Under the pieces are notes generated by a model. That model ran no database searches. It saw nothing but the letters and a program-made list of their open reading frames with translations, and had not been told where the DNA came from. The position numbers were made by a program, and so were the translations under genes. A DNA stretch of 64,000 bases from Hippasteria phrygiana (taxonomy: Eukaryota > Echinodermata > Asteroidea > Valvatida > Goniasteridae): contig JAZGUH010000376.1 in the NCBI GenBank assembly GCA_037893225.1, positions 372,001 through 436,000 on the forward strand, given 5' to 3'. Shown here piece by piece: positions 1-38,645 of the stretch. Position 1 is the stretch's first letter. The number at the start of each line of letters is the position of its first letter.

Positions 1-1146
1 AAGGATTAAGTGAATGAATAAATAATATAACGGAGGTACCTCCATTATAATACATGTAGTTACATGTTTTAGTGACACGATTTAGTGATATTTATTAATC
101 AGCGAATATATATTGAGCAAAAGAAACTTAGGTGCATGACTTTGTGTTGCCGGCCGTGCTGTGACATTAGTTGCAGCACCCCTTGTGATGTTCATGCTTT
201 TTAATTTTTGTGTGTGATTGAGGCAACCTCTTGTTTATTGACATGTAATTACTAAAGTTTACTAGTTTTCAAATGTTTTTCATTTTTCCGTGGAGGATTT
301 TAATGATCGAGTGTACTTCTAAAGATTTGATCATTTTTTTTTGCTGCTCATCAGTGTATTTGTACAATGTCATTTAGTTATTGCGGCGATGAGAGACGGG
401 CCAATATGCAGTCAATTAAGGGCTGAAGTTTTTTCACATGTGAAACCCAGATTGAAATGTTGAGATATTGGTTTTAAGTTGGCAGGTATCAGATTTTATT
501 CATTCCCTTTGGGTGGACAATATTTTTTTAATGTATACAAACAGGAAGTATCCATAGTTGAGTTGTTTTTAATTATAAAGTAACAGTCAAGTTGTACTTG
601 AACGATTTAATGAAGCTAAATGAAGCATCTGAAAAATAAATGAAATCAAACTTTGCATGCTCCACTCGAGAAGTGTTAATTTCTGTCGATGGTTTCACTA
701 GTAACACTCATAACTGTTACTTCAGACAGGAGGGAGAAACATTAAGTAGTAATGTTAAGACTAATCCTTGCCAAATTTTGTGTGAGGTGTAATTTAGTGC
801 AATTAATTCAGTGCGGAGCACCAAGTCTTCGTTTTTTCTCCATTGTGAACTGCAGGCAGGAAACACTGTACTTCGGTTGGTCGCAAGTTTTACCGATCAA
901 AGGTTTGAGGGCGCCCTTCCGCATGAGCGACTACCACACGTTTCATTTCTTCAGTGGCGGGCGGATTGTCCGATCTTCCCTTTTTTTGCTCCCAGTCCCA
1001 GCTACGTCGCCGACTCCGGGATTGTGAATGGATGCCAACAAAAAGGCCCCCCTACCCCCAACAAACCAACAGAAAAGGGGGACATGTAAAATAAGAAATC
1101 AAACATATTTTTAGTCACCTTGGAGAGTTGTAAGTATAATTTTTTT
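1..1146. other. AT-rich DNA, no gene recognised
   Basis: No convincing coding region. Two overlapping short ORFs at 752-1089 occupy a slightly GC-richer patch, but they have no recognisable domain and no convincing splice context. Confidence 0.5.
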
Positions 1147-2302
1147 GTAATCGTTACCTTTACTTTAGCTAGTTCTAGGGTACTTCCAAAAATGTAAGGC
1201 TCTCCGTTAGCCTTACAAGGATATGTGATTTTGGTCCCCGTAACTCAATGGGGTTTGCAATACGCTCTTGCGATATCTGTTACAATGTTCCAGAATTCCA
1301 CTTTCCCAAACCTTAATCTCCCCAGAAGGTTATCCAATCCCTCCTACATATCTTTTAGACTTTTGCGGCCCATATGCGGAACATTGAAACGGACAATTTA
1401 TTGAGTAATGGAGTTTTTACTCACCGACCGACGTATGCAGCCAAAATGAACATGGCGTCGCACAGCTGACTGATACAGTCCACCAGAATGCGCATGCGCG
1501 TGGATTTTTCGAAGAAATTTGGGGCTCGACCATTTTTTGAAGGAGGGGGGTGCATCTTGTCTACATCGCGCAACGGTGATGTGTGCAACGTGAACAAAAT
1601 AATGACCATCGATCCAGATTCTGCTTTATTCTGGTTTGCATAAAATAAAAGCTCGCATTGGCAAAAAATAGCTACGTGGCTACCCGCCATGACATTTAGA
1701 CGTATGGGCATAACAAACATTGTCAGGCCAAGGAACAACACTAGGTATAATAGCGCGCCAATAATTTATCACATTGCACACATCACCGTTGCGCGATGTA
1801 GACAAGATGCACCCCCCTCCTTCAAAAAATGGTAGTAGTTCTAGGGGTAACCTTTAGCCTGGACCCCGTTTTATAAGAGAACGAAGAAGACAGTTTATGT
1901 TTCGGAACTTACCTCAATATTTTGTGATGATACAGGCAGGAAAAGTCACTATGTGTGCTTGAAATCATCTAAATAGTTCGCTAAGATATCATGTTGAATT
2001 ATGAGCAAGCTTATTTTTGTGGAAAGAGGGCAGGGTTTTGATTTCTAAGGGAAATTATGGGGTAAAACGGCAACGTCTCTGACTGCAAATAGAGGTAGGA
2101 AAGTCACATTTTCTTTGAAAGTGCATTTCAAAATTACAACAAACATGAGTTATGAACATGGAGGAATGATCTGAAGAAAAAAAGACTGCTTTGGCCTGCA
2201 AAAGTCACTTTGGTACTGTAAAGTCATCTGTAAAGTCAGTTTTGATGGAACTCGTAAACAAAATAGAGGTGTCCTAAATAACTAAGTAAAGGTAACGATT
2301 AC
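1147..2302. repeat. MITE-like element with 19-bp terminal inverted repeats, interrupted by a fold-back segment
   Basis: GTAATCGTTACCTTTACTT at 1147-1165 is the exact reverse complement of 2284-2302. The part from about 1859 to 2302 is repeated at 62486-62896, where the element is short (about 430 bp). Here about 690 bp of extra DNA lies between two TAGTTCTAGGG words (near 1170 and 1837), so a second sequence was probably inserted. No coding capacity was seen. Confidence 0.65.
1530..1832. repeat. Perfect 59-bp fold-back (inverted repeat with 185-bp spacer)
   Basis: 1530-1588 and 1774-1832 are exact reverse complements over 59 bases. The arms start and end with CCATTTTTTGAAGG / CCTTCAAAAAATGG. 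The spacer shows no gene. A transcript through it would form a long perfect hairpin. Confidence 0.85.
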
Positions 2303-2336
2303 CAATTTTGTTTTCAAATTTGGGGTAGGCCTACCG

Positions 2337-2834
2337 AATCTAGTGTACCACACTAAATTATAGGCCAAACTGATTACCATAAATTGTAAACCCACAACTT
2401 TTGTTGAATAATAATTTTGGGGGGTCATGCAATTGATGATAGATTGTGTACCTAATTATGATCAGCTATCATAACCTGGCTGGGGTTTCTGTGCTAAAGT
2501 TCAACTTTTGTGAAGACTTGATAAATTTTGGCTTTAAAATTGGTCCTATTTTAGTATTTGGCTTGGCAAGTGGTGGGATGCTTTATGAAAAATAGCAGCT
2601 AACGTTAGCCGGTCTGGGAAAAAACTACATTTTCGGGGGTGGTATTCTCTAGGGACTCAACTGCTGACCTGACAAAAATTGAAAGAATTTGACAGATTAA
2701 GATTCAAACTATAATTTTCATTAGTGTCACAAGAACTGAGAGACTCCTGGATAAGGATTTTTTCAGTTCACTGTGAAGTTAGTGGATTTTACACTAAAGT
2801 CAATGGGAGTTGATTTAGTGTGGCGCACCCTACT
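2337..2834. repeat. Possible degenerate inverted-repeat element
   Basis: The left edge carries GTACCACACTAAAT and the right edge ATTTAGTGTGGCGCACCCT. This resembles the termini of the better preserved elements at 15063 and 23613, but the interior is unlike theirs. The remainder up to 4159 holds nothing I recognise. Confidence 0.3.
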
Positions 2835-4159
2835 GACTGTGCACAAGCACCCCCTCAATGGAAAGAAAGGGAGAGTTGGGGAATCACTATCGACGCCATC
2901 TTGCCTGACTTTAATTTGGGTTGTGGAGTGTCTGATTTTCACCTCTATTATTCAGAATCAAAACCGCGAAAAAAGAGATACCCCCGGTAAATACGTTTAG
3001 GCCACATGAACGAGGAACAGCGTGTGTGAAAGCAGCGTAATTGTATGTGACCTGTCCATGTATAGACCTTATCGCAAATACTGCCTGGTTGAGATGTCAC
3101 AATGGTTACAATGCATTGTCAGAAGGCAAAAGTTACAAACATCGCTCCTGTTTCCTTCCCACAATGCCTTTTTAAATTGATAGGCCTAACATTAGGCCTA
3201 CCAAAATGCATCCTCTACAACTTATTCCATCCCTCTCTCATTTCCCAACTTTCGGTCGACAAATCACTTGAATCACTTTATTCATCGTTTTAAAAAAATA
3301 TTTTTAACAAGAAATAAAAATTGAATTCTTAAAAGCTATTTCACGCAAATAGGACTATCATGATTACGTAAGAATAATGCTTCTGTTCTGAACTGTTTGT
3401 AAGCATACAAAAGCCGGGAATTCACTAGGTTTAAGCTACATGTATTTTTTTCTGAGATGTGAGGGCAGTATTGATTTGATGTCAATCAAGGTACTCGCGA
3501 GTTACTGCACTACTACTCTTTCAAAGTTTTGTATCTGATAATTTTCATTGAAGTTTGTTCAAAGTGATGTATAAAAATGTTCCACAAATTACTACACTAC
3601 TCACAAAACGTACTATAGAGGTGCTCGGAATTTATTCTGAAAATCTCCCTGGATTTTGAAGCCAACTTACCGGTACATGCATACTGCTACTGCCACACAT
3701 CAGTGTACATAGACACACACTTGTATGGTGTATTCAACTCCGTGAACATTTAGAAGTACTGGAGTACAAAGTTTAATTATCTGCAACAGAGTAGTAAGGC
3801 CAAGTAAAAAAAGTTTAGTATCCAGGTTTTTAAATTTATAAAAGGAAGGAGGGAGAGGCTTTCTTAATTTTTATTTTCAAGGTGGCCACCATTCTTTATA
3901 AAATTTCCGACAACCGTAAGTTTTCAACTGTTTAAAGACGCAAAAATGGAAGAGACATGTTGGACAAGAGAATTGAACATGTTTACAGTGGTTTTTAATA
4001 CTAGTTTTTAAAGTTATGACTCGCCAGTATTTTATTTTCCGATGGATCGGTTGACATTTTGTTTATTTTTCTCACCTCAATTGGTAACAATTTAAAAAAT
4101 CCAGGCGGCCCCCAAAAAGGAAGCGGGCTGGGACGCTAAAAATTTTTTTTTACTTCGCT
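2835..4159. other. AT-rich DNA, no gene recognised
   Basis: Short ORFs only, without domains, splice pairs or repeats shared with other parts of the window. Confidence 0.5.
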
Positions 4160-4448
4160 TTAACCCCTTGCGTACGGATGCCGCAAATGTGCGCAAAAAG
4201 AACAGTGCCACCAGGCCGGATGACGCAATTGTCCGCCGTTTGTGCAGTTTCAATCCATTGTTGGATTAAACAGTGCCACCAGGCCGGATGACACCATTGG
4301 CCGCTGTTTGTGCAGTTTCAATCCATTGTTGGATTATTGTGTATAGGTTACGCTTGACTGCACAAACACATTGTAGCGGTTCGCTTGGCTGCCATAACCG
4401 CCGCGGCACCCGGACGTCTCCCGTAAAATACCGTACTCAAGGGGTTAA
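4160..4448. mobile_element. piggyBac-type MITE, TTAA-flanked, copy 1
   Basis: The body 4164-4444 starts CCCCTTGCGTACGG and ends CCGTACTCAAGGGG, and is flanked on both sides by TTAA (4160-4163, 4445-4448). A TTAA duplication with C-rich termini is the piggyBac superfamily hallmark. No transposase is present, so it is non-autonomous. An internal segment beginning AACAGTGCCACCAGGCCGG (about 70 bp) is tandemly duplicated, as in the copy at 49706 but not in those at 9281 and 26433. Confidence 0.8.
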
Positions 4449-5172
4449 TACTGCGCATTGTATTTTGCAGTGCTTGTGTGTACATTTTATCAAGGCAATG
4501 ACATGATGCAGAACGTTCTGAAATGAACGGCCGATAGATTCTTCGACCAGAATGAATGCTAGTTCTTGGTAATTTGCCCAAGTATGCTGTTTTGACCTCC
4601 TATCCCCCCATCCAACTGAAATACCAGTGTATTTGGTTTGCTCTGCTCCCAGCCAAGATCCCACCTGCCAAGTATGGCACTCGCAAATAATCAGAAATGA
4701 TGTCTGCTGGCAAACCTCCCAACCCAAGCCTAAAGAGCACACTGCGTGACTTGCTTACTTTACCCACATGCACCACGGCTTTTTCAACAGGCAGCCACTT
4801 AGAAGGTGTAGAGGATGTTTGTTTTCATAGGGCATAATTCCAATAGGTTGGGTAGATGAGGGCCTGAAAGTAGAAATTGTTGTTAATTGACATAAGTGGG
4901 GGTATTTGGTGACGTGATAGTGCCCACTGAGATAATTAGGTACTGTGGGAGGGCTGTTACTGTTTGGCTGCCAGAATGTCACTGTACATTGTACATTTAC
5001 AAAGTCTCCAAGTATTTCCCCCCCCCCCCCCCCCCCCCCCCCCCCAGTGTGAGCTGAGATGTGAGCATGAAGGACAAGATATTGTAGGAATTTATATCAT
5101 TTAGGAATCTTGACAACCCGGGGCACGACTTGAACAGTATTTTTAAGAATTCTGTCCTAAATCTATTTTTTT
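4449..5172. other. No gene recognised; 28-bp poly-C tract
   Basis: An uninterrupted run of C at 5018-5045 is the only notable feature. Its length is likely to be polymorphic or assembly-sensitive. Confidence 0.6.
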
Positions 5173-6318
5173 TGTACGGGTAATTAAGTCGGTCCCCGGA
5201 GTCCCATTTGTAAGGCACCATGTTTTCTTACAGTCAGTCCAAGGATTAATAACAAATTATTGCGGTATTCTTCTTGCAGATGGGTTATTCCATGAAATTG
5301 AGACACACACATTTTGGCATTCTTTGATCATGTAATTGTTTTTCTTGTTTAAACTAAACTGACTTTAATGATGATTATAGTATGAACTTGGAGAGTAAAA
5401 GGAAGGCTTTCGAATGATACAAAACATGAGGGAATTATATGTGATATATTTATGTTTTGTTACCAAGTGTGATGGTGTCCCGGGCTAAATTATGGGGTAA
5501 TTTTGTGACATAAAAACTTACAAAGTACAAATAGGGTTCAGAGGTTAAAAAAATTTACTATTTTTTTTCTTTTACATGAGAAGTTAGGAAAAACTATATG
5601 TAACTTAACAACAAATCATATTTTCAGTATCTCTTACATATTTTCTGTTATATGGCTAACAAATCTGTGGTTAAGGAGGTAACGGATGGTGTCCCACTCT
5701 GTTAAATTTTGTTAAATCCTGCCTGCATGTCTAGCTTTCTTACTTTTCATCAAATGAAGTCTTAATTAAATTTCTTTTCTTTTGTGTGATTACCGTTTTA
5801 ATAAAATTAACTTGTAGAGTCAATATATTGGACTGCCTTTTAAAAATTGGGGAAAAATGGACTCGGATGTAACGGTGGTGTCCCACGTTACATCTTAACA
5901 ATTTTGGGAACTTTCTTCCATAATTTATCTGTAAGCAGTATGTGAAATGTCCATGCAACATAACAAAGACTTGGAGAACCTCTTTTTAAAACATTTAAAT
6001 TGGTGTCATGTGTTAGTTTTCCACCCTTGATGGAGTGGTGTCCCATGTTACATCATTGCAGGCTTGCCAAATCAATTATTACATCAAATGTTTTAGCCAA
6101 TTGTGTTTGATGGGTATGTAAAAGGATAACATTTTCTAACTACCACATACAGATTTGGATGCTTTAACATGATTATTTATGAATTATGAGCAACATAAAC
6201 TAAGATGTAATCGGGACAGAAGAATACCGAATAATTTGTTATTAATCCTTGGACTGACTGTAAGAAAACATGGTGCCTTACAAATGGGACTCCGGGGACC
6301 GACTTAATTACCCGTACA
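5173..6318. mobile_element. 1.15-kb element with about 101-bp terminal inverted repeats
   Basis: 5173-5275 and 6218-6318 are inverted copies differing by about one indel; both termini read TGTACGGGTAATTAAGTCGG outside-in. The AT-rich interior repeats the word GGTGTCCC(A/G) several times and encodes nothing recognisable. The long, nearly identical TIRs suggest recent activity of a non-autonomous DNA transposon. Confidence 0.75.
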
Positions 6319-30233: not shown

Positions 30234-30367
30234 TGGCCGGGTTGGAGGGTTGGAGGGTTGGAGAAGGCTAGAGAAGGCTAGAGAAGGCTAGAGTACAATG
30301 ATTTACTTACATTTCTTTTTCAGCATGGGGGATGGGGCATTTCTGTATGTTTGATGGAAGGGACTCA

Positions 30368-30372
30368 TGCAT
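30368..30372. repeat. Left target-site duplication TGCAT
   Basis: TGCAT directly abuts the AG start of the element and recurs at 32852-32856 directly after its CT end. Confidence 0.75.
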
Positions 30373-30593
30373 AGTAGTATGGTAATTGCCGGTTCTATGT
30401 CATTTCATGTTTTTTCACTTTTCTCTCTAATTTTGCTGTGGGTACATACGTCAAATTTTTTAGAAACAAAATAGCCCAAAAAATCACCCAAAATTTTGCT
30501 GGGGTACTACACACCAAAATTAGCACAAAATCAAGAAAATAAAAAGTATTTTCCATATCCCACAAGCGTACTAAATCTCCGGGGCGCCCGGGC
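30373..30593. repeat. Left 221-bp terminal inverted repeat
   Basis: Exact reverse complement of 32631-32851. The inner edge is GC-rich (GGGGCGCCCGGGC, containing the palindrome GCCCGGGC); the rest is AT-rich. The short hydrophobic ORF within it occurs in both TIRs and is probably incidental. Confidence 0.95.
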
Positions 30594-30675
30594 TCTGCTC
30601 CTAAAATAACATACGGCAACAAAAAAATTTTTTTTTTTATTTTTTTTTTAAATATTATATTATGTTACTATAAAG
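30594..30675 (+). promoter_or_regulatory. AT-rich leader and putative promoter of gene 1
   Basis: Contains A7T11, a second T tract and ATATTATATTATG, then ACTATAAAG directly before the ATG at 30676. Gene 2 likewise has TTTATAAA abutting its ATG. A TATAAA-type word touching the start codon in both genes suggests compact virus-like promoters; this is inference. Confidence 0.4.
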
Positions 30676-31758
30676 ATGGAAACACAACCCATGATTCGAG
30701 GATACAATAGATGGAACAAAATATCTTTAAAAAGATATATCGATAAGTATAACTTACCTTTAGGAACACCAACAGGACGCTATAATACGTATATCAGGCG
30801 AGATTATATTCGAGCTATAAAAGAAGAAGAATCTAAAGCTTCGTTAGCGCAACTCGCGCACGATAAAAATATTCGGGTCGTCTCAACGGGTAGAAATGGT
30901 CGAGTGATAAAAAAAGATTACATCGAAGCTATAAAAAGATTTAAGGAGCAAAATACTTTTCGAGAAGCAGACTTTCGAGAGACTAGAAGATTTGAAAACA
31001 GTTATCGAAATTTGGAACTGATTCCGAGTCTGTTTATCGACGATCCGGAGCAATTTTACAACACCCATACGTCGATGATCAAAAACAAAATCGTAGCTGA
31101 ATTAATAAAAATAAAAACGATGAAACTACAGATCGCTATTAAAATAAAGTATGTAAAAAAATCAGGTATTAAGACTACAACACAAACCGCTATTCATTTT
31201 AGTTACCAAAATCGAGTATTAAACAAGAGTGAGATAGCTACGACTATCGGGAAACAATATGAAACTATATTATCTCAGATAGATAAATTTACGAATAAAG
31301 GAAGTGGTTGGACTATAGATAAAATAGTCGCGTTTTACATAAACATAAACAGAGTTAAGCCTCTGGTAGGCGCTTCTTACGTAAAACTACCCGAATATAT
31401 AACTAACAAACACGCAACATTTAATATCAAAAACGAAGATCAAGAGTGTATAAGATGGTGTTTAAGAGCCGCCCTAGGTATATATACCGATAGAGTTAAA
31501 AACCAATTAGCAACAAACCCAAAGTACCAATTTCGCGGAAATAATCCATCTACTTATAAAACCGATGATGGATTAAATTTTAAGGACATAGACTTCCCCA
31601 CACCCATAAATCAGATACCGAGAATAGAAAGACAAAACGATATAAGTTTGTTCACGTTGTTAAGTAAGTCAGTCGGTTGGTTGGCAGAGCACGTGTGGAC
31701 ATTATTGGTAGGTGTTGGTACTTTGATACTAGTATACATGCAAAAAAATTTAAAATAA
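30676..31758 (+). CDS. Gene 1: SAP/HeH-like + GSGW region + C-terminal membrane anchor (360 aa)
   Basis: Residues 17-48 and 57-88 are two copies of a helix-extension-helix-like motif, the second being LAHDKNI..TGRNGRVIKKDYIEAI, similar to SAP/HeH DNA-binding folds. Residues about 130-308 match a region I know from invertebrate proteins upstream of type-B DNA polymerase in Polinton/adintovirus-like elements. Landmarks are GSGW (209-212), INRVKPLVGASYVKLPE (224-240), FNIKNEDQECIRWC (249-262) and LNFKDIDFP (300-308). In that family the chain normally continues toward zinc-finger/endonuclease and polymerase parts. Here it ends in a hydrophobic segment (about 335-355, LLVGVGTLILVYM) and a basic tail, so the product is probably membrane-anchored. 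Start: the first ATG after the leader. Gene 2 follows after 16 bp. Function is unknown; nucleic-acid binding at a membrane is inference. Confidence 0.85.
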   Translation: METQPMIRGYNRWNKISLKRYIDKYNLPLGTPTGRYNTYIRRDYIRAIKEEESKASLAQLAHDKNIRVVSTGRNGRVIKKDYIEAIKRFKEQNTFREADFRETRRFENSYRNLELIPSLFIDDPEQFYNTHTSMIKNKIVAELIKIKTMKLQIAIKIKYVKKSGIKTTTQTAIHFSYQNRVLNKSEIATTIGKQYETILSQIDKFTNKGSGWTIDKIVAFYININRVKPLVGASYVKLPEYITNKHATFNIKNEDQECIRWCLRAALGIYTDRVKNQLATNPKYQFRGNNPSTYKTDDGLNFKDIDFPTPINQIPRIERQNDISLFTLLSKSVGWLAEHVWTLLVGVGTLILVYMQKNLK

Positions 31759-31774
31759 TATACGACTTTATAAA

Positions 31775-32419
31775 ATGACCGCAGAATCCGTTTACCCTAA
31801 ATTGCCCGTTGATTATAGTGCACCTATAGAAACGAACGAGTCTTCAGTCTTTAGGTTAAATAAAATCGAACGAGTGCAAAAAGAGATATCTAACGAGAGA
31901 GATAAGAGAGAACGGTTGCACAAAAAGTATAATAAAATTATTACCTGTTTATCTAACGCAGAGACCGTTATAGAATGTTTAGGTGCTTTATTCGGTGTAA
32001 CAGGCATAGTCGGCATTGTTGGTGTCATTAGTATACCTATAGGTGTGGTGTTAGAAGGATTAGCTATAGGATGCGTGGGTGTAAGTTTGGCATTAAAACG
32101 ATTTAGTAAAAAGTTTAGAGGTAAAGCTAAGAAACACGATGAGATTAGAGTAGTAGCCGAAACAAAATTAAATACGATAAATGAATTAGTGTCTCAGGCT
32201 GTAGACGATGGCGATGTAAGTCACGAAGAATTTGCTTTGATTAACGATGAATTAAAAAAGTTTTATGGAATGAAAGAAGCTATTAGGACACAAACTAAAG
32301 CGAGAGAAGAGTCTGTTTCTAACCAAAAAGAAATAGACGATGAGGTTAAAAAGAAAGTTGTTGAGCTTCTAGCGAAAGAAAAAAAAGATCTTATCGCAAA
32401 ACTTACAACTTTAAATTAG
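31775..32419 (+). CDS. Gene 2: coiled-coil protein with central hydrophobic hairpin (214 aa)
   Basis: Residues 1-27 are a proline-containing N-terminus (YPKLPVDYSAP). Residues 28-55 are strongly charged and helical. Residues about 67-107 are a glycine/valine/isoleucine-rich stretch long enough for two membrane helices separated by IPIG. Residues 108-125 are basic (SKKFRGKAKKHDEIR), and 126-210 are helical and charged, likely a coiled coil. I recall similar proteins (basic patch followed by AETKLNTI and an EE(F/Y) motif) in cnidarian and other invertebrate genomes near Polinton-like genes; their function is unknown to me. A hairpin-membrane topology with both ends on one side is inferred. The ATG at 31775 is preceded immediately by TTTATAAA. 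Near the 3' end an A8 run (32379-32386) leads, in the -1 frame, to an open tail. Confidence 0.85.
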   Translation: MTAESVYPKLPVDYSAPIETNESSVFRLNKIERVQKEISNERDKRERLHKKYNKIITCLSNAETVIECLGALFGVTGIVGIVGVISIPIGVVLEGLAIGCVGVSLALKRFSKKFRGKAKKHDEIRVVAETKLNTINELVSQAVDDGDVSHEEFALINDELKKFYGMKEAIRTQTKAREESVSNQKEIDDEVKKKVVELLAKEKKDLIAKLTTLN

Positions 32420-32532
32420 AAATATGTAAAGAGTATGAGCGTGATTCTAACGTGAGTATAGATAAGCCTCCTAGCTACACAAGTGCTCAAGAGAGTTTAG
32501 AGACTAGGCCTAGCGCTCCTTGCAAAGAGTAG
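32386..32532 (+). CDS. Open -1-frame tail with PPSY and PSAP late-domain motifs
   Basis: No ATG in this frame. It is open from 32365 and stops at TAG 32530-32532, overlapping the end of gene 2 and running 110 bp past it. It encodes PPSY (32467-32478) and PSAP (32509-32520) only ten codons apart, in a hydrophilic, acidic tail. These are the two classical motifs that recruit NEDD4-type ligases and TSG101 for ESCRT-mediated membrane scission. Entry could occur by -1 frameshifting on the A AAA AAA heptamer, which is correctly phased to gene 2 codons 202-204. Alternatively, a one-base length change in the A run may have separated it from gene 2. Confidence 0.5.
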   Translation, partial: RSYRKTYNFKLEICKEYERDSNVSIDKPPSYTSAQESLETRPSAPCKE

Positions 32533-32566
32533 TTGTAGTTAGTAACGCAGTAAATCTACATAACAC

Positions 32567-32612
32567 AAAAAAAACCTCACTTCTACTGAGTGTAGAAGTG
32601 AGGGTTTTTTTT
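32567..32612. terminator. A8-hairpin-T8, putative bidirectional transcription end
   Basis: CCTCACTTCTAC (32575-32586), loop TGAGT, GTAGAAGTGAGG (32592-32603): a perfect 12-bp stem, preceded by A8 and followed by G then T8, so A and T tracts can extend it. It lies between the tail stop codon and the right TIR. It resembles a rho-independent terminator or the 3' hairpins of some large DNA viruses rather than a host polyadenylation site. The role is inferred. Confidence 0.6.
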
Positions 32613-32630
32613 GCCTTATGACAAATCTTC

Positions 32631-32851
32631 GCCCGGGCGCCCCGGAGATTTAGTACGCTTGTGGGATATGGAAAATACTTTTTATTTTCTTGATTTTGTG
32701 CTAATTTTGGTGTGTAGTACCCCAGCAAAATTTTGGGTGATTTTTTGGGCTATTTTGTTTCTAAAAAATTTGACGTATGTACCCACAGCAAAATTAGAGA
32801 GAAAAGTGAAAAAACATGAAATGACATAGAACCGGCAATTACCATACTACT
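32631..32851. repeat. Right 221-bp terminal inverted repeat
   Basis: Exact inverse of 30373-30593, ending ...GGCAATTACCATACTACT. Confidence 0.95.
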
Positions 32852-32856
32852 TGCAT
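32852..32856. repeat. Right target-site duplication TGCAT
   Basis: Matches 30368-30372. The sixth base differs on each side, so the duplication is 5 bp. Confidence 0.75.
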
Positions 32857-34187
32857 TAACCGGAGGCCTCTATGACAAATATATGGCGACAGCTGAACTT
32901 CTCTGACATTGAAGTTTGTCTTTATAAGGCAAACACATACCGGTACATACATGTACATGTTTTTAGGCATGTTTTCCTTTGAACATTTTTGAAACCCTTT
33001 TTTTTTATTCACAATTTTTCCAATAATGTTGAAAACTTATGAAATTGTTGTAATATTCAGACTGGTTATTTAAAAAAGTTAACCCAATTTCCCTTAAGGG
33101 GGAGGTTGTTCCACATCCCCGTCCCCCTCCTAGGAATATGGACTGGGACTGTACGTGTTCAAATGTACTGCTGGAAATGAGTCCAGGGGAAAGAGTTAAC
33201 TTTTCCAGGCCTATTTGACTAAAAGCTTGGCAAATTGAAGTGGGATGTATGTGTAGAACATTTTTAAAAGACAACATTTTCTGGGATGTCAGGACCATCA
33301 GGGCAATATCTTGAGAAATGGGATTCAGGGTTCTCTGCCAAACCTGCGACTGTTTGCATGCTTTAAAAAAAGACAGGATATAATGCGGCATTGATGATTT
33401 ATCATGACATTGTGGTGGTATGCCACTGGACAAAGTAAATGTCCATCTATATGCATTCCAGCTCTAAGGAGCAATTTGGCTAACGGGATATTTTTCACAA
33501 AGGCCAGCTTGGTCAGCATCAACGGTTTAATGGATCTGTCAAGTTGTGCTCAGTTTTTTTATATTGGGGAATGAAAGTATTGTTTATGGCATGAGGGGAG
33601 GTCTGACAGAACCTGAAGGACAAGATGTCTTTCAAAGGAACTACATGTACATGTACTAGATTGTTTTACTAAATTAGTGCATTAAAAGTGGTGAAGGTGT
33701 GTTGGTCACTTCAGCAGGGTTTAATGCTCAAACAAAGGTCACAACGCATCCGGAGTTGGCCAAGTCTAGCTGAACTTGCAATGATGGGTTCAGGCATGAC
33801 TCCAAGACTATTATGACAGTAAAAAACAAAGTACTTTTGGAGTCCAGAATCAAGTCTACATGGAAGTAGAATGAATTTTGAGTCTACTTTTCTTCCTCAC
33901 TGTTTTGACCTTGCACATCTATCTGTACTTGGCACTGATAAGTTGGTGGTTCACGGTTCACGTGTTGGTTCTGTTAAAACTTTTTTGTTTTCTCACAAGT
34001 CTAAGCACTGTGTCAGCTGAAAATAGATTCACCAAGTGTAAACAAGTTTTGTTGTATTAATAATGTTTCCTTTTAGGCAAAATCAAAGAATATCATTTCC
34101 AGAAAAAAAGGAGGAGGCCATTTTCCCCGCTTATTTTTTTAGATCATGCCAGGCAGTATCTTTCAAGATGGCCAGTGCCAACCTCAT
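32857..34187. other. Right flank of element within unit 1, no gene recognised
   Basis: A 142-codon minus ORF at 33005-33433 has no recognisable domain. Another minus frame near 33080-33110 gives WNNLPLKGNW, faintly like the WNNLP motif at LINE ORF2 ends, but too little surrounds it to call. Repeated exactly at 36811-38141. Confidence 0.4.
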
Positions 34188-34629
34188 TGGCCGGGTTGGA
34201 GGGTTGGAGGGTTGGAGAAGGCTAGAGAAGGCTAGAGAAGGCTAGAGTACAATGATTTACTTACATTTCTTTTTCAGCATGGGGGATGGGGCATTTCTGT
34301 ATGTTTGATGGAAGGGACTCATGCATAGTAGTATGGTAATTGCCGGTTCTATGTCATTTCATGTTTTTTCACTTTTCTCTCTAATTTTGCTGTGGGTACA
34401 TACGTCAAATTTTTTAGAAACAAAATAGCCCAAAAAATCACCCAAAATTTTGCTGGGGTACTACACACCAAAATTAGCACAAAATCAAGAAAATAAAAAG
34501 TATTTTCCATATCCCACAAGCGTACTAAATCTCCGGGGCGCCCGGGCTCTGCTCCTAAAATAACATACGGCAACAAAAAAATTTTTTTTTTTATTTTTTT
34601 TTTAAATATTATATTATGTTACTATAAAG

Positions 34630-35712
34630 ATGGAAACACAACCCATGATTCGAGGATACAATAGATGGAACAAAATATCTTTAAAAAGATATATCGATAA
34701 GTATAACTTACCTTTAGGAACACCAACAGGACGCTATAATACGTATATCAGGCGAGATTATATTCGAGCTATAAAAGAAGAAGAATCTAAAGCTTCGTTA
34801 GCGCAACTCGCGCACGATAAAAATATTCGGGTCGTCTCAACGGGTAGAAATGGTCGAGTGATAAAAAAAGATTACATCGAAGCTATAAAAAGATTTAAGG
34901 AGCAAAATACTTTTCGAGAAGCAGACTTTCGAGAGACTAGAAGATTTGAAAACAGTTATCGAAATTTGGAACTGATTCCGAGTCTGTTTATCGACGATCC
35001 GGAGCAATTTTACAACACCCATACGTCGATGATCAAAAACAAAATCGTAGCTGAATTAATAAAAATAAAAACGATGAAACTACAGATCGCTATTAAAATA
35101 AAGTATGTAAAAAAATCAGGTATTAAGACTACAACACAAACCGCTATTCATTTTAGTTACCAAAATCGAGTATTAAACAAGAGTGAGATAGCTACGACTA
35201 TCGGGAAACAATATGAAACTATATTATCTCAGATAGATAAATTTACGAATAAAGGAAGTGGTTGGACTATAGATAAAATAGTCGCGTTTTACATAAACAT
35301 AAACAGAGTTAAGCCTCTGGTAGGCGCTTCTTACGTAAAACTACCCGAATATATAACTAACAAACACGCAACATTTAATATCAAAAACGAAGATCAAGAG
35401 TGTATAAGATGGTGTTTAAGAGCCGCCCTAGGTATATATACCGATAGAGTTAAAAACCAATTAGCAACAAACCCAAAGTACCAATTTCGCGGAAATAATC
35501 CATCTACTTATAAAACCGATGATGGATTAAATTTTAAGGACATAGACTTCCCCACACCCATAAATCAGATACCGAGAATAGAAAGACAAAACGATATAAG
35601 TTTGTTCACGTTGTTAAGTAAGTCAGTCGGTTGGTTGGCAGAGCACGTGTGGACATTATTGGTAGGTGTTGGTACTTTGATACTAGTATACATGCAAAAA
35701 AATTTAAAATAA
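34630..35712 (+). CDS. Gene 1, copy 2: SAP/HeH-like + GSGW region + membrane anchor (360 aa)
   Basis: Amino-acid identical to the product of 30676-31758, with the same leader and the same abutting TATAAAG before the ATG. Sixteen bases separate it from gene 2 copy 2. Confidence 0.85.
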   Translation: METQPMIRGYNRWNKISLKRYIDKYNLPLGTPTGRYNTYIRRDYIRAIKEEESKASLAQLAHDKNIRVVSTGRNGRVIKKDYIEAIKRFKEQNTFREADFRETRRFENSYRNLELIPSLFIDDPEQFYNTHTSMIKNKIVAELIKIKTMKLQIAIKIKYVKKSGIKTTTQTAIHFSYQNRVLNKSEIATTIGKQYETILSQIDKFTNKGSGWTIDKIVAFYININRVKPLVGASYVKLPEYITNKHATFNIKNEDQECIRWCLRAALGIYTDRVKNQLATNPKYQFRGNNPSTYKTDDGLNFKDIDFPTPINQIPRIERQNDISLFTLLSKSVGWLAEHVWTLLVGVGTLILVYMQKNLK

Positions 35713-35728
35713 TATACGACTTTATAAA

Positions 35729-36373
35729 ATGACCGCAGAATCCGTTTACCCTAAATTGCCCGTTGATTATAGTGCACCTATAGAAACGAACGAGTCTTCA
35801 GTCTTTAGGTTAAATAAAATCGAACGAGTGCAAAAAGAGATATCTAACGAGAGAGATAAGAGAGAACGGTTGCACAAAAAGTATAATAAAATTATTACCT
35901 GTTTATCTAACGCAGAGACCGTTATAGAATGTTTAGGTGCTTTATTCGGTGTAACAGGCATAGTCGGCATTGTTGGTGTCATTAGTATACCTATAGGTGT
36001 GGTGTTAGAAGGATTAGCTATAGGATGCGTGGGTGTAAGTTTGGCATTAAAACGATTTAGTAAAAAGTTTAGAGGTAAAGCTAAGAAACACGATGAGATT
36101 AGAGTAGTAGCCGAAACAAAATTAAATACGATAAATGAATTAGTGTCTCAGGCTGTAGACGATGGCGATGTAAGTCACGAAGAATTTGCTTTGATTAACG
36201 ATGAATTAAAAAAGTTTTATGGAATGAAAGAAGCTATTAGGACACAAACTAAAGCGAGAGAAGAGTCTGTTTCTAACCAAAAAGAAATAGACGATGAGGT
36301 TAAAAAGAAAGTTGTTGAGCTTCTAGCGAAAGAAAAAAAAGATCTTATCGCAAAACTTACAACTTTAAATTAG
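35729..36373 (+). CDS. Gene 2, copy 2: coiled-coil/hydrophobic-hairpin protein (214 aa)
   Basis: Identical to the product of 31775-32419. The A8 run is at 36333-36340, same phase. Confidence 0.85.
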   Translation: MTAESVYPKLPVDYSAPIETNESSVFRLNKIERVQKEISNERDKRERLHKKYNKIITCLSNAETVIECLGALFGVTGIVGIVGVISIPIGVVLEGLAIGCVGVSLALKRFSKKFRGKAKKHDEIRVVAETKLNTINELVSQAVDDGDVSHEEFALINDELKKFYGMKEAIRTQTKAREESVSNQKEIDDEVKKKVVELLAKEKKDLIAKLTTLN

Positions 36374-36486
36374 AAATATGTAAAGAGTATGAGCGTGATT
36401 CTAACGTGAGTATAGATAAGCCTCCTAGCTACACAAGTGCTCAAGAGAGTTTAGAGACTAGGCCTAGCGCTCCTTGCAAAGAGTAG
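36340..36486 (+). CDS. -1-frame PPSY/PSAP tail, copy 2
   Basis: Same open tail as 32386-32532: PPSY at 36421-36432, PSAP at 36463-36474, stop at 36484-36486. As the copies are identical it is not independent evidence for conservation. Confidence 0.5.
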   Translation, partial: RSYRKTYNFKLEICKEYERDSNVSIDKPPSYTSAQESLETRPSAPCKE

Positions 36487-36520
36487 TTGTAGTTAGTAAC
36501 GCAGTAAATCTACATAACAC

Positions 36521-36566
36521 AAAAAAAACCTCACTTCTACTGAGTGTAGAAGTGAGGGTTTTTTTT
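36521..36566. terminator. A8-hairpin-T8, copy 2
   Basis: Identical to 32567-32612. Confidence 0.6.
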
Positions 36567-36810
36567 GCCTTATGACAAATCTTCGCCCGGGCGCCCCGGA
36601 GATTTAGTACGCTTGTGGGATATGGAAAATACTTTTTATTTTCTTGATTTTGTGCTAATTTTGGTGTGTAGTACCCCAGCAAAATTTTGGGTGATTTTTT
36701 GGGCTATTTTGTTTCTAAAAAATTTGACGTATGTACCCACAGCAAAATTAGAGAGAAAAGTGAAAAAACATGAAATGACATAGAACCGGCAATTACCATA
36801 CTACTTGCAT

Positions 36811-38141
36811 TAACCGGAGGCCTCTATGACAAATATATGGCGACAGCTGAACTTCTCTGACATTGAAGTTTGTCTTTATAAGGCAAACACATACCGGTAC
36901 ATACATGTACATGTTTTTAGGCATGTTTTCCTTTGAACATTTTTGAAACCCTTTTTTTTTATTCACAATTTTTCCAATAATGTTGAAAACTTATGAAATT
37001 GTTGTAATATTCAGACTGGTTATTTAAAAAAGTTAACCCAATTTCCCTTAAGGGGGAGGTTGTTCCACATCCCCGTCCCCCTCCTAGGAATATGGACTGG
37101 GACTGTACGTGTTCAAATGTACTGCTGGAAATGAGTCCAGGGGAAAGAGTTAACTTTTCCAGGCCTATTTGACTAAAAGCTTGGCAAATTGAAGTGGGAT
37201 GTATGTGTAGAACATTTTTAAAAGACAACATTTTCTGGGATGTCAGGACCATCAGGGCAATATCTTGAGAAATGGGATTCAGGGTTCTCTGCCAAACCTG
37301 CGACTGTTTGCATGCTTTAAAAAAAGACAGGATATAATGCGGCATTGATGATTTATCATGACATTGTGGTGGTATGCCACTGGACAAAGTAAATGTCCAT
37401 CTATATGCATTCCAGCTCTAAGGAGCAATTTGGCTAACGGGATATTTTTCACAAAGGCCAGCTTGGTCAGCATCAACGGTTTAATGGATCTGTCAAGTTG
37501 TGCTCAGTTTTTTTATATTGGGGAATGAAAGTATTGTTTATGGCATGAGGGGAGGTCTGACAGAACCTGAAGGACAAGATGTCTTTCAAAGGAACTACAT
37601 GTACATGTACTAGATTGTTTTACTAAATTAGTGCATTAAAAGTGGTGAAGGTGTGTTGGTCACTTCAGCAGGGTTTAATGCTCAAACAAAGGTCACAACG
37701 CATCCGGAGTTGGCCAAGTCTAGCTGAACTTGCAATGATGGGTTCAGGCATGACTCCAAGACTATTATGACAGTAAAAAACAAAGTACTTTTGGAGTCCA
37801 GAATCAAGTCTACATGGAAGTAGAATGAATTTTGAGTCTACTTTTCTTCCTCACTGTTTTGACCTTGCACATCTATCTGTACTTGGCACTGATAAGTTGG
37901 TGGTTCACGGTTCACGTGTTGGTTCTGTTAAAACTTTTTTGTTTTCTCACAAGTCTAAGCACTGTGTCAGCTGAAAATAGATTCACCAAGTGTAAACAAG
38001 TTTTGTTGTATTAATAATGTTTCCTTTTAGGCAAAATCAAAGAATATCATTTCCAGAAAAAAAGGAGGAGGCCATTTTCCCCGCTTATTTTTTTAGATCA
38101 TGCCAGGCAGTATCTTTCAAGATGGCCAGTGCCAACCTCAT
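36811..38141. other. Right flank of element within unit 2, no gene recognised
   Basis: Identical to 32857-34187. Confidence 0.4.
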
Positions 38142-38645
38142 TGTTTCAAGATTTTCTCTGACATTCAAACTGCAATGGATTTACTGGGAATTTTCTCTTT
38201 TCCCTTAATATATTTGATCGTTTTGGTGAGAAATTATAAAAAACATACTACTCAAAACAAAAACAACTTCAACTGCAAAAAGGAAGCAGGCGGGATGCTA
38301 GTTTTTTTTATGTTGCCTTAAGTGTACAGAAATATGACGGACCATGCCGGGAATTGGTATTTTACAGACCAATAAAACCAAGATTTCTAGCAGCCTGAAA
38401 CTAAATGGAATTTTGAGCCAAAAATGTGAGTCCTTCCAGCAGAAAATTCAGGATAAAGCCAGTGAGTGAAGGATGTGAAATTCAGTAGTGTGGCACTTGG
38501 CCTAAAAACTGCCTGAACACTTTTTTGGGGTGCCAGCTGTTTGCCATGGTTGTCCAGTCAGTGTACAAACACCTCATCTTCGTTTGGTCTTAAAAATGTG
38601 CATTGGTGAACACACCCCACCTGTGATTCTGGTGAAGACTAGAGT
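38142..38645. other. No gene recognised
   Basis: Unique AT-rich DNA. Confidence 0.4.

Follow-up and report, generated by a model that had tools for sequence, protein, structure and literature searches.

The window analysed here is a 64,000-nt stretch of Hippasteria phrygiana DNA (GCA_037893225.1, contig JAZGUH010000376.1, which is contig C376 of the 944-Mb assembly), and positions are given within it unless another locus is named. At 30373–32851 on the plus strand it contains an internally deleted Polinton copy of 2,479 bp, the parts of which map to both ends of larger relatives in the same genome. The element is bounded by terminal inverted repeats (TIRs) of exactly 221 bp that match each other perfectly (left, 30373–30593 on the plus strand, tip AGTAGT; right, 32631–32851 on the minus strand, end ACTACT), and TGCAT is found directly outside each of them (30368–30372 and 32852–32856) as a target-site duplication of 5 bp. 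Two open reading frames (ORFs), ORF1 (360 aa, 30676–31758) and ORF2 (214 aa, 31775–32419), lie on the plus strand between the TIRs, and an A8–12-bp stem–T8 hairpin (32567–32612) separates ORF2 from the right TIR. Genes for a polymerase and an integrase are absent from 30373–32851. An initial annotation of this DNA had reported the perfect TIRs with AG/CT ends, TGCAT on both sides, the length of 2,479 bp and the hairpin, all of which are confirmed in the sequence; its description of two intact same-strand genes is correct in that both frames are open and run in the same direction, but ORF1 is a chimera created by a deletion junction.

An element assembled from two ends of a larger one

Comparison with the large copies resolves the element into 1,275 bp of the family's family-B DNA polymerase (PolB) end and 1,204 bp of its ORF2 end, joined at 31647|31648. 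Similarity fails to extend past this position in 16/16 PolB ends and 18/18 ORF2 ends (in five of the latter the first 20 bases beyond the junction are themselves diverged), and the breakpoint has no exactly shared bases. The join falls inside ORF1 and preserves one frame: codons 1–324 (30676–31647) encode the N-terminus of PolB, whereas codons 325–360 with the stop (31648–31758) are the end of the gene that lies upstream of ORF2 in the large copies, a tail that is hydrophobic by eye. Of the eight PolB and eight ORF2 ends compared, those of C327 come closest (98.7% and 97.9% identity, respectively), and as this copy measures 20,504 bp against the 2,479 bp of the element, approximately 18.0 kb is missing.

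The element carries changes of its own in addition to the junction. Relative to all 16 large PolB ends read, it has lost a further 27 bp (nine codons) in frame at 30830|30831, and ten of its substitutions are absent from the eight PolB and eight ORF2 ends, two of them (element positions 256 and 277) recurring in the decayed copy C464. A search of the genome for the 27-bp loss placed the two copies of the element in the window at the top of the best 40 of 657 candidates, and 35 of the other 38 span 224–228 bp, as expected without the loss; the exceptions are C464 (202 bp), C139 (200 bp, 81% identity) and C127 (210 bp). C464 was considered as a full-length parent sharing the loss and rejected, being a decayed copy of full-length type with a different, frame-breaking length at this site plus a stop. 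The site was read directly in C464; C139 or C127 may represent an older copy that shares the loss. The element is a young internal-deletion derivative and not a fresh copy of any single sampled relative.

The second copy in the window stems from a tandem duplication, in which 30234–34189 and 34188–38143 (plus strand) are identical across 3,956 bp, so that the element recurs at 34327–36805 with the same flanks. The repeat starts beside a long G run. Whether it arose by segmental duplication in the genome or by duplication in the assembly, it represents one insertion rather than a second. We searched the host genome with a 300-bp query across 31647|31648 and inspected the best 40 of 1,366 candidates: the two full-length matches are the tandem copies and the other 38 cover one half only. 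Another short element would be expected to outrank half matches, so the search gave no second insertion and none of the dispersed short copies with different target-site duplications that the initial annotation had named as a check. The miniature satellite that it proposed is not supported: both outcomes that it had listed as refuting hold as far as these searches reach, the parts belonging to a larger element that is deleted here and the junction being found at a single locus. The “two accessory genes” of such a satellite likewise do not stand, because ORF1 consists of the N-terminus of PolB and the C-terminus of another gene. As far as the assembly shows, the element is a single-locus internal-deletion derivative and not a two-gene satellite. 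Its supposed need to be moved by a relative does follow from its lack of genes for polymerase, integrase and ATPase, and further copying would require the enzymes of relatives; its mobility is hypothetical.

Large relatives sharing the same termini

The 944-Mb assembly was searched with the 34-bp TIR tip, allowing at most two mismatches, and with the reversed tip as a control. The tip has 138 sites against 0 for the control, and the match is therefore not due to chance. Pair statistics cover 100 listed sites, which form 48 pairs and leave four tips unpaired: two pairs are the copies in the window (2,479 bp), one spans 6,192 bp and 45 span 14.5–31.4 kb. The 38 tip sites outside this listing may include further short elements with more divergent tips. 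A separate search with the TIR gave a similar picture for the best 40 of 1,020 candidates, with 30 forming 15 pairs 14.5–23.5 kb apart, four being the window's own and six lacking a partner within the 40. For five of these six a complete partner was located 15.0–16.3 kb away, with four of the five sizes recurring among the pairs of the tip search, and the partner of the sixth (C83) is a truncated TIR without 73 bp.

The genome thus has dozens of elements of 14.5–31 kb, mostly 15–24 kb, that share the TIRs of the window element, as the initial annotation had suggested a genome search might reveal. TIR identity between the window element and the large copies examined is 94–100%, and exact 5-bp target duplications, all different, flank 15/15 large copies in which two complete ends were read. 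Polintons (Mavericks) are expected to duplicate 6 bp, and the 5 bp found in these 15 copies and in the window element is treated as a peculiarity of the family because the gene content fits a Polinton. In family scans, pieces of two large copies (C803 and C197) proved to encode an integrase (rve), an ATPase of the Pox_A32 type and, in a single protein of 1,344 aa, motifs of Endonuclease VII and of family-B polymerases, and PolB and ATPase ORFs with the same starts occur in pieces of other large copies. Judged by this gene content (protein-primed PolB, rve integrase, A32-like ATPase), the large elements classify as Polintons, and the Polinton kinship proposed for the window element is borne out. 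Candidate ORFs scanned for capsid and protease genes of the large copies gave no Pfam match above cut-off, a 425-aa ORF had no match in a PDB sequence search and five large-copy proteins had no NCBIfam match above cut-off.

ORF2 is a normal, complete gene of the large family, being 91–98% identical in the 8/8 ORF2 ends compared; a search of the protein collection gave 395 candidates, of which 24 are relatives. The middle of the protein is hydrophobic by eye; no Pfam family or named domain was found in Pfam or PHROGs, and a search of IMG/VR returned no relatives. The region of the 36-codon tail upstream of ORF2 occurs twice in several large copies (ORF2 ends L007, L018, L019, L025, L032, L040 and L041), and in L007 it ends two similar consecutive ORFs. 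The hairpin downstream of ORF2, also present in the large copies, is possibly a transcript end signal; by eye, where the stem differs between the relatives and the window element, changes on both sides preserve its pairing, and L017 has the loop in inverted orientation. The TIRs of the 2,479-bp element would be expected to serve as protein-primed replication origins and as the ends recognized by the integrase.

The 6,192-bp pair belongs to an element on contig C305 (L034, G000:C305:1010397-1016788, positions 101–6292) that combines the TIR tips of the window family (213 bp, 97.65%) with a foreign core. The core derives from another, abundant family, with a PolB fragment in both of its 1,504-bp arms, and encodes proteins with a death domain (PF00531, 8.5e-5), a PCNA-like domain (PF00705, 1.7e-7) and an RPB5-like domain (PF01191, 3.6e-20); no integrase was found among the four distinct ORFs scanned. 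CCCTC stands on both sides, but the flanks are C-rich and the target duplication is consequently weak evidence. The C305 element looks like a TIR-capture chimera and suggests that TIRs of the window family have been used in trans, if its ends were acquired before insertion. Its PCNA-like protein matches 118 stretches of the genome, 57 of which are full-length (252 residues) and at least 92% identical, and has no relatives in an IMG/VR search. The family of this core is thus a second abundant one in the genome, Polinton-like in character; another copy of it that was read, L042 (G000:C693:622300-630300), has a PCNA-like gene and long inverted arms that both carry PolB, and no match to the window element was found in it.

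The chimeric ORF1 and its predicted primer domain

The polymerases of Polintons are described in PMC11071308 as running from a terminal protein through a vOTU protease and an exonuclease to the palm. That description gives the terminal protein a little-finger (LF/PAD) fold and places the priming residue, Ser or Tyr, after the second helix and before the last strand, close to a Gly or Pro. In a structure model of ORF1 compared by Foldseek, residues ~99–229 are predicted to form such a domain, with an LF/PAD fold and a suitable serine: Ser210, in the motif GSGW, fits the described priming position and is invariant in 20/20 aligned rows. The model has a mean pLDDT of 59.6, with low confidence outside the terminal-protein domain, and the Foldseek TM-scores are low. 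A second fold search, using residues 1–440 of the full PolB, again returned little-finger matches, with one unrelated row at rank 41; no OTU fold or OTU protease was among its best 50 rows, and the assignment of the vOTU domain follows PMC11071308 and position.

The 324 PolB-derived codons thus hold the whole predicted terminal-protein domain and part of the putative vOTU domain. The invariant Cys258 is retained, while the invariant His382 of PolB lies past the breakpoint and is lost, leaving ORF1 without the Cys–His pair of an active vOTU and without the predicted protease histidine, the exonuclease and the polymerase. Since the presumed vOTU histidine is gone, the product is predicted to be unable to cut itself free. 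We predict that ORF1 encodes a primer protein freed from its polymerase, followed by what is left of the presumed protease, now inactive, and by a hydrophobic tail. Deletion derivatives of this sort are ordinary for DNA transposons, and only the stand-alone primer gene sets the element apart.

ORF1 is not a novel protein. An initial homologue search returned 0 among 1,576 candidates, a search that compares only proteins of 0.55–1.75 times the length of ORF1, and the full PolB scored over residues 1–440 gave 18 relatives. Weak family matches of ORF1 and ORF2 were discarded (none above cut-off in Pfam, best E 0.0029; best E 0.011 in PHROGs), and neither ORF1 nor the full PolB had sequence matches in the PDB.

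Origin of the element and comparison with known systems

Given the established two-end origin, in-frame fusion, single junction, shared TIRs and the family's 5-bp target duplications, we consider it roughly an even bet (probability about 0.5) that the element, with its in-frame PolB fusion, arose by internal deletion during protein-primed replication and depends on full-length relatives for copying. A deletion of this kind in a replicating resident Polinton would join the PolB end to the ORF2 end; both TIRs would act as origins, allowing the PolB of a helper to copy the short genome, and a helper integrase would insert it, as with a defective-interfering genome. ORF1 would then make a stand-alone terminal protein with the priming serine and a hydrophobic tail, surplus of which could feed or poison replication of the helper. 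A more ambitious form of this explanation, in which the element is a minimal protein-primed replicon (two origins, a detached membrane-tailed primer and one accessory gene) that a helper Polinton copies and inserts in trans while the uncleavable terminal protein interferes with that helper, seems improbable.

Deletion in place is nearly as likely as deletion during replication. A full-length copy would have inserted, duplicating TGCAT, and later lost ~18 kb by end joining, leaving an accidental fusion ORF in a dead copy. Three observations speak for this course of events and weigh against a replicative origin: the junction is single and sits at one target site, the breakpoint lacks shared bases, and other copies in the genome are also damaged (the truncated TIR of C83, the frame-breaking change and stop of C464). 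However, both tips and both ORF frames survive, even with the extra 27-bp in-frame loss, and so does the hairpin, and apart from the chimeric C305 element every other TIR pair among the 48 listed is at least 14.5 kb long; for these reasons an origin during replication is slightly favoured.

It is very unlikely that the short element is a helper-dependent coding satellite, established as a mobile parasite of the large family. The retention of TIRs, hairpin, complete ORF2 and predicted primer domain would suit such a parasite, and the C305 element, in which the same tips enclose a foreign core and the four distinct ORFs scanned include no integrase, suggests that these TIRs can be mobilized in trans; yet a full-span match to the junction would be expected to rank first, and the best 40 candidates of the junction search held no other copy. 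We give just as little credence to an assembly artefact in which the two ends of a long repeat were wrongly joined. The tandem copies lack any difference and start next to a G run, and assemblers may handle G runs badly. Against this, the 27-bp loss and the substitutions are absent from the compared end pieces (apart from the two of ten that recur in C464) and the target duplication is exact and has the length typical of the family, features that a collapse of known copies would not yield. This argument leaves the tandem duplicate itself uncleared.

The element resembles the full-length Polintons (Mavericks) of the same genome in its TIRs, AGTAGT tips, 5-bp duplication, ORF2 and PolB N-terminus, and differs in lacking polymerase, exonuclease, integrase and ATPase and in measuring 2.5 kb instead of 14.5–31 kb. 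It does not encode the polymerase and integrase of its own that an autonomous Polinton has. The N in the name Polinton-1N1_DR stands for non-autonomous. Like internally deleted non-autonomous DNA transposons in general, the window element has kept its TIRs, lost its interior and would need enzymes from relatives; unlike them, it was found at one locus only and its junction forms an open chimeric gene. Defective-interfering genomes occur for protein-primed replicons such as adenoviruses, and they too keep both terminal origins (a role that the TIRs would play here) and lose the middle; the window element differs in being integrated in the host genome, and the resemblance is one of sequence layout alone. 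Polinton-1N1_DR is among the elements named in PMC9341505. The H. phrygiana family duplicates 5 bp at its targets, whereas 6-bp duplications are reported for vertebrate Mavericks in PMC8097293.

A title and abstract search of one open-access library found no description of a Polinton that had lost its interior and gained a stand-alone primer gene. The element is a natural experiment in which a Polinton polymerase has had its predicted terminal-protein domain split from the remainder, and because the same genome has dozens of larger family members it becomes testable whether Polinton TIRs suffice for copying in trans. It can likewise be tested whether PolB has an N-terminal domain able to act as a separate primer. 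The nearest parallels are the stand-alone terminal proteins that PMC11071308 describes for adenovirids and one coral Polinton, in which the primer domain is likewise encoded apart from the polymerase. ORF1 is distinguished from these by its creation through a deletion, its partial putative vOTU domain, its foreign hydrophobic tail and its place in an element without a polymerase.
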